Part shown: positions 188 through 437 of the stretch, piece after piece
Position numbering within the stretch: position 1 is the first letter of the stretch
Layout: the number at the start of each line of letters is the position of its first letter
NCBI GenBank assembly: GCA_016187565.1
Contig: JACPJR010000002.1
Coordinates: forward strand, 1 to 35,703
Reading direction: 5' to 3'
DNA from: Candidatus Woesearchaeota archaeon
GTDB lineage: Archaea > Nanobdellota > Nanobdellia > Woesearchaeales > JACPJR01
Length of the DNA: 35,703 bases
Notes under the pieces: model-generated
What the model was told of the DNA's origin: nothing
Seen by the model: only the letters and a program-made list of their open reading frames with translations
The model's database searches: none
Made by a program: the position numbers and the translations under genes

Positions 188-437
188 ACGCCGACGTGGC
201 ACAACCTGGTACTGCGCAAGCTTGGAATCTTTGTGGAGCTTGATCATCCAATTGATCAACACCATGACACAGAGAGCTTGTTCCCTTCTGGGTATCCCGG
301 AGATTTTTGCGAAAAATCTCGTAAAAAGCAGAGGGCTTCGGTAAGCCTCAGTCCCTCTTATGGATGGTTTTTCGGGAATCGGGGAATTCAAAAATCATGA
401 AGGGATTTATGATGGAAAGTCCGGGCGTCGGCGTTTT
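188..437 (+). ncRNA. Candidate structured ncRNA of about 250 nt, no known family
   Basis: The ends form a perfect 9-bp helix (188-196 with 426-434), immediately followed by a T5 run (434-438) that could end transcription. Positions 296-301 pair with 420-425 and stack directly on that helix. Further local hairpins are 217-222/237-242 or the competing 240-246/253-259, 300-308/312-320 (9 bp, GCG loop), 331-349 (one bulge) and 364-372/390-398 (9 bp, one wobble). The 5' end resembles a tRNA acceptor and D-arm, and GGAAAGTCCGGGC at 414-426 recalls conserved region I of RNase P RNA. Neither family's other elements are present in order. Two minus-strand reading frames cross the area but look non-genic. 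It is best treated as an unassigned structured RNA; the strand rests on the T-run and the TATA position. Confidence 0.4.

Follow-up and report, generated by a model that had tools for sequence, protein, structure and literature searches.

We find that positions 190 to 433 on the + strand of the window, a 35,703-nt stretch of DNA from a Candidatus Woesearchaeota archaeon (assembly GCA_016187565.1, contig JACPJR010000002.1), almost certainly encode a precursor of tRNA-Ser(GGA) with three predicted introns, at tRNA positions 37/38, 53/54, and 59/60. The locus is a universal RNA split by introns and not a new class of RNA, and its more novel part is an element within the 53/54 intron, a recurring module of hairpin, linker, and hairpin (301-358). 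The parts of the gene are as follows.

158-165, + strand: TATA-like box TTTTTAAA, from the sequence; similar boxes stand before many tRNA-Ser genes of the order
190-227, + strand: exon 1, with the acceptor 5' strand, D arm, 5' anticodon arm, and anticodon GGA, from splicing and ARAGORN
228-274, + strand: predicted intron 1 at 37/38, 47 nt, from exon continuity and relatives with introns at the same place
275-300, + strand: exon 2, with the 3' anticodon arm, long variable arm, and T-stem 5' strand (CCCGG)
301-386, + strand: predicted intron 2 (A) at 53/54, 86 nt, with a BHB motif (TCCC/GGGG, bulges GG^A and AA^T)
301-320, + strand: module hairpin 1 (AGATTTTTGCGAAAAATCTC), from BLAST and pattern matches
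321-329, + strand: conserved module linker GTAAAAAGC
330-358, + strand: module hairpin 2 (AGAGGG...CCCTCT)
373-380, + strand: distal strand CGGGAATC, pairing with 302-309 as the intron-side helix of the splice motif
387-392, + strand: exon 3, the 6 nt TTCAAA, which are the T-loop (positions 54-59)
393-419, + strand: predicted intron 3 (B) at 59/60, 27 nt, with a BHB motif (TTCA/GGAA, 3/4 pairs, bulges AA^A and AG^T)
420-433, + strand: exon 4, with T60, the T-stem 3' strand, the acceptor 3' strand, and discriminator G
434-438, + strand: T-run, from the sequence

Removal of the three predicted introns (228-274, 301-386, and 393-419) leaves an 84-mer that ARAGORN recognizes as tRNA-Ser(GGA) with every stem paired, and its cloverleaf has a 7-bp acceptor stem, a long variable arm, a GGA anticodon, and a TTCRA T-loop. 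A dynamic-programming count shows that exactly three blocks must go to restore the tRNA. Brute-force splicing of single introns followed by ARAGORN solved many relatives and failed on the window, because several introns must be removed from it at once. Many of 40 genomes from the order, compared by BLAST with positions 150-460, showed short 5'-end matches, and ARAGORN identified most of the matched places as tRNA genes, mainly tRNA-Ser and several of them intron-free. The letters of the exons agree with the intron-free tRNA-Ser of relatives: exon 1 is 95% identical over 38 nt to one such gene, and the relative L009, as an example, reads GCCGCCATGGCACAACCTGGTACTGCGCAGGCCTGGAAAGTCTG...CCCGGTTCAAATCCGGGTGGCGGCG, where the window reads GCCGACGTGGCACAACCTGGTACTGCGCAAGCTTGGAA (190-227) and TCCGGGCGTCGGCG (420-433). 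A search of the whole genome with intron-free tRNA-Ser gave a single match of consequence, the window locus, and two weak 'Ser' calls by ARAGORN in the same genome (L057 and L060) read as other tRNAs with introns. No second tRNA-Ser(GGA) gene was found in this genome, the assembly of which is rated 96.7% complete, so the mature tRNA-Ser(GGA) from this locus should be functional, and it would read UCC/UCU codons.

The original prediction proposed for 188-437 an undescribed structured RNA of about 250 nt, and the features from which it started are real. The 250-nt stretch folds at -89.2 kcal/mol, compared with -72.2 +/- 4.7 kcal/mol for its shuffles (z = -3.6, 0/200 as good). The TATA-like box is present 25-32 nt upstream of position 190, and TTTATAAA-like boxes stand about as far upstream of many further tRNA-Ser genes in the order. 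The T-run is found as TTTTT directly 3' of the gene, which we take to be a likely site of archaeal transcription termination. Seven base pairs of a proposed 9-bp closing helix (GCCGACG/CGTCGGC) are the tRNA acceptor stem, and the two flanking pairs are fortuitous. A second helix thought to stack on it, CCTGGtACT/AGTCCGGG, can indeed pair, but it joins the D-loop with letters of an intron and of the T stem and would be lost on splicing. The likeness of the first 30 bases to tRNA is genuine, as they belong to the 5' half of tRNA-Ser, and the view that the tRNA family was not satisfied does not hold for the spliced form, which is complete according to ARAGORN. What had looked like RNase P RNA (GGAAAGTCC, 414-422) is the 3' splice site of the 59/60 intron (GGAA-AG^T-CC). 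An Rfam search of the window at gathering and lax thresholds returned nothing relevant and no match to an RNase P model, and a complete archaeal RNase P RNA is encoded elsewhere in the genome (contig C29, 122.7 bits); RNase P RNA was therefore rejected as the identity of the locus.

A strongly reduced or rearranged universal RNA had also been suggested, which was close as regards rearrangement and wrong as regards reduction, since the tRNA is complete with three introns; its limits lie slightly inside the proposed ends. The expectation that ordinary models miss a structured, tRNA-like RNA gene here was borne out: ARAGORN found no tRNA at 190-433 in the unspliced window, and it and the Rfam tRNA model both missed the gene, being blind to the unspliced form. 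Genes of this kind can escape tRNA searches, so that genomes of this group may seem to have too few tRNAs. A new class of structured RNA, non-coding and some 250 nt long, would be in keeping with the strong fold, the promoter-like box, and the lack of a matching Rfam family, yet we give it practically no credence, because the parts conserved in relatives are the tRNA-Ser exons, the same gene occurs in relatives without introns, and splicing restores a perfect tRNA.

The splice sites point to removal of the introns by the usual archaeal route. At 53/54, the central helix TCCC/GGGG forms all 4/4 pairs (one of them G-U), the bulges are GG^A and AA^T, and the intron contributes an 8-bp helix (GATTTTTG/CGGGAATC). 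At 59/60, TTCA/GGAA forms 3/4 central pairs with one mismatch, both bulges are in place, and the full T stem serves as the outer helix. The motif at 37/38 is relaxed, with a 4-bp central helix that by eye is not fully formed, and the position of this intron comes from exon continuity. The genome encodes an EndA splicing endonuclease (E = 1.1e-29) and an RtcB ligase (E = 1.8e-156). We infer that 190-433 is transcribed and, from the splice motifs and the presence of both genes, that EndA cuts out each intron and RtcB joins the exons. The 53/54 intron would leave before the 59/60 intron, since the 59/60 motif has the T stem as its outer helix and the 5' strand of that stem adjoins the T-loop directly only once the 53/54 intron is gone; the 6-nt T-loop exon TTCAAA would be retained between them. 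In the window, local pairing of the 5' strand of hairpin 1 competes with its pairing to the 3' end of the intron in the splice motif. Group I introns were also considered by eye and set aside, as the introns are short and carry BHB motifs. A decayed tRNA-Ser pseudogene with inserted elements would likewise be heavily interrupted and would escape the finders used when unspliced; we regard it as very improbable, given that the tRNA helices are all fully paired, the splice motifs are largely intact, this is the sole tRNA-Ser(GGA) gene found, and other families keep the same architecture with diverged introns.

T-arm introns also occur in relatives. Among 148 tRNA-Ser loci of the order classified by script, 101 have no T-arm intron, 39 have the 59/60 intron only, 5 have both, and 3 were left unclassified. 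The central pair at position 57 covaries in the 59/60-only loci, with TTCA/TGAA in 21/37 and TTCG/CGAA in 3/37, where 37 of the 39 loci were checked and at least two (L204 and L286) were omitted as likely misparses. The pairing of TTCG with CGAA and of TTCA mostly with TGAA is as expected if the 59/60 motif is used. The five genes with both T-arm introns span four families and comprise the window gene, a tRNA-Ser(UGA) of the same genome (L022, contig C3), and the tRNA-Ser(GGA) genes of genomes G011, G168, and G149. Each of the last three requires removal of four introns, and when spliced by hand they are recognized by ARAGORN as tRNA-Ser(GGA). An intron at the same 53/54 place is found in L022, L102, and L256, and also in L015, where its interior is unrelated. 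Some tRNA-Ser genes carry introns in the D-loop (L016, L015, L021, L062, and L277), and those of L015, L021, L062, and L277 share a similar end, CAGGAA(A). L057 (1262-1410 of G000:C33, in the same genome as the window) is a tRNA, probably Ile, with an apparent extra T-loop intron that ends in GGAAAG and is unlike the window introns in sequence.

In archaeal pre-tRNAs, of Thermoproteales and others, BHB introns are known at 37/38, 53/54, and 59/60, with up to three introns per gene (PMC4090602, PMC4390854, PMC8450103), and close introns of which one must leave before the next motif can form have been described (PMC8450103). The genes reported here differ in that they belong to Woesearchaeota, that a T-loop exon of 6 nt lies between two T-arm introns, and that three relatives of the window gene need four introns to be removed, where the stated maximum is three (PMC4090602, PMC4390854, PMC8450103). 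The 6-nt exon and the relatives with four introns go beyond what has been stated as the limits of splicing in archaeal tRNAs.

The module in the 53/54 intron recurs widely. BLAST matches to it were found in 27/288 genomes of the order, 21/288 of them at E < 1e-3, and in the marginal genomes a few of the matches fall outside the module. Over its first 30-odd bases, the 53/54 intron matches sequences from the genomes of other families with 100% identity (E = 1e-11 and 2e-10); by our reading of their contexts, these sit in tRNA-Leu introns. In a pattern scan across GTDB, 61 stretches matched, of which 57 came from Woesearchaeota or from archaeal bins with other labels; the other four, all bacterial (L131, L136, L165, and L168), were set aside as probable chance. 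Rfam searches of 12 element loci found only the ordinary neighbouring tRNA. The copies are of two kinds. Those of the first kind are sense introns of tRNA genes (Gly, Val, Ala, Leu, Lys, and others), mostly at 59/60; those of the second lie at protein genes or, in antisense, next to tRNA genes, and border on a direct repeat of the surrounding sequence. The pairing of hairpin 1 is kept while its letters change (AGATTTTT/AAAAATCT, AGACTTTT/AAAAGTCT, AAATCTTT/AAAGATTT, and AGGTTTTT/AAAAACCT), in copies outside the pattern selection; MAFFT misaligned some of the hairpin copies. In one metagenome-assembled genome (RIFCSPHIGHO2_02_FULL_36_9, with a dozen or so pattern matches), the module lies inside a repeat of ~250 nt with more hairpins (L121, L150, L158, and L167), which is perhaps a fuller form of the element.

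The surroundings of the copies outside tRNA introns bear on how the module spreads. The direct repeats that flank them measure about 17-61 nt. A repeat score of at least 16 was obtained for 17/56 copies and for 0.4% of 1500 mismatched pairings, and a score of at least 20 for 11/56 copies and none of the 1500, where a few repeat pairs (L122) may reflect tRNA-to-tRNA likeness and not duplication. The left-hand repeat is often the decayed one, and at several sites the insertions are in tandem (L104, L118, and L166). No flanking direct repeat was seen at the window's own copy. At L104, L118, and L166, arrays of target repeat and element adjoin an intact tRNA 3' end and resemble a small repeat-spacer array.

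On these observations we put at about even the chance that the module is a Woesearchaeota element that inserts with long duplications of ~17-61 nt, often at the T-loop sequence TTCGAA/TTCAAA, and is a live source of tRNA introns. The target would often be this palindrome-like stretch of tRNA T-loops; antisense insertion with duplication would leave the tRNA intact, and an element inserted in sense within the T-loop would persist as a BHB intron. Alternatively, the module could be a tRNA intron of the ordinary kind that recombination has copied from one tRNA gene to another, with the copies outside tRNA genes as side products. This is possible though rather doubtful. Transposition of introns among archaeal tRNAs has been described in Thermoproteales (Fujishima 2010, as cited in PMC4090602), and, taken as groups, intron copies have the distal pairing strand and repeat-flanked ones do not. 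The complement downstream of the hairpin 1 5' strand has a mean z of 2.1 in 18 intron copies versus 0.4 in 20 repeat-flanked copies, with groups assigned by reading contexts and a search region wider than the intron in some copies; its apparent group-level enrichment in intron copies lends support but does not decide the matter. Copying by recombination does not readily explain the copies outside tRNA genes, which border on direct repeats of the target at the site, protein genes (L174, L140, L156, and L111) included, and are sometimes in tandem; these features point to an insertion reaction.

It appears unlikely that a tyrosine recombinase integrated the module at att sites in tRNA genes, along the lines of the model of intron gain in Caldiarchaeum. 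The repeats are often tRNA 3' ends (L085, L143, and L118), and the published model combines an integrase, a tRNA fragment, and intron gain (PMC3293823), but the repeats match the target and not the element, they vary from copy to copy, and the element is roughly 50-110 nt long and carries no gene. Reverse transcriptase was considered as the mobilising enzyme; its genes occur in 73/265 genomes, in ~10/21 carriers (counted by hand) versus about a quarter of the other genomes, a weak enrichment that is not decisive.

The proposed insertion of the element with target duplication has partial parallels in known systems. As in Thermoproteales (Fujishima et al. 2010, as cited in PMC4090602), similar introns occur in unrelated tRNAs and at different positions, whereas the module also lies outside tRNA genes beside direct repeats, which suggests an insertion mechanism; the mechanism of tRNA intron transposition is called unknown in PMC4090602. 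The disrupted tRNA-Thr of Caldiarchaeum likewise combines a tRNA fragment as direct repeat with intron gain, but its insertion is 1.8 kb long with a predicted recombinase gene (PMC3293823), whereas the module is short, non-coding, and also found at non-tRNA sites. To judge from their description in PMC2229807 and PMC10969869, small palindromic repeats and MITEs of prokaryotes and double-hairpin elements of mitochondria resemble the module in being short, hairpin-forming, non-coding repeats that multiply within a genome; the module stands apart through its long flanking repeats and its occurrence as a tRNA intron. Its occurrence both as an intron and beside long direct repeats gives a handle on the spread of archaeal tRNA introns. 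If the module is mobile, related genomes offer one and the same element both as a repeat-flanked insert and as a working intron, and a comparison of the two states makes it possible to test how tRNA introns pass from gene to gene.

Other features of the window were also noted. A Pfam scan of ten of its longer ORFs found genes of ordinary kinds and nothing that bears on the RNA. Positions 1-105 form a strongly structured repeat (z = -4.4) with no Rfam match, which is identical at the start of three contigs of the same genome (C2, C14, and C21), has 70-90% identity to sequences in some relatives, and probably broke the assembly. Two overlapping ORFs at 1049-2054 look like a nucleotidyltransferase/HEPN pair of the toxin-antitoxin kind; the first might, at a guess, encode the nucleotidyltransferase, and the second matches HEPN (PF05168) just below the cut-off.
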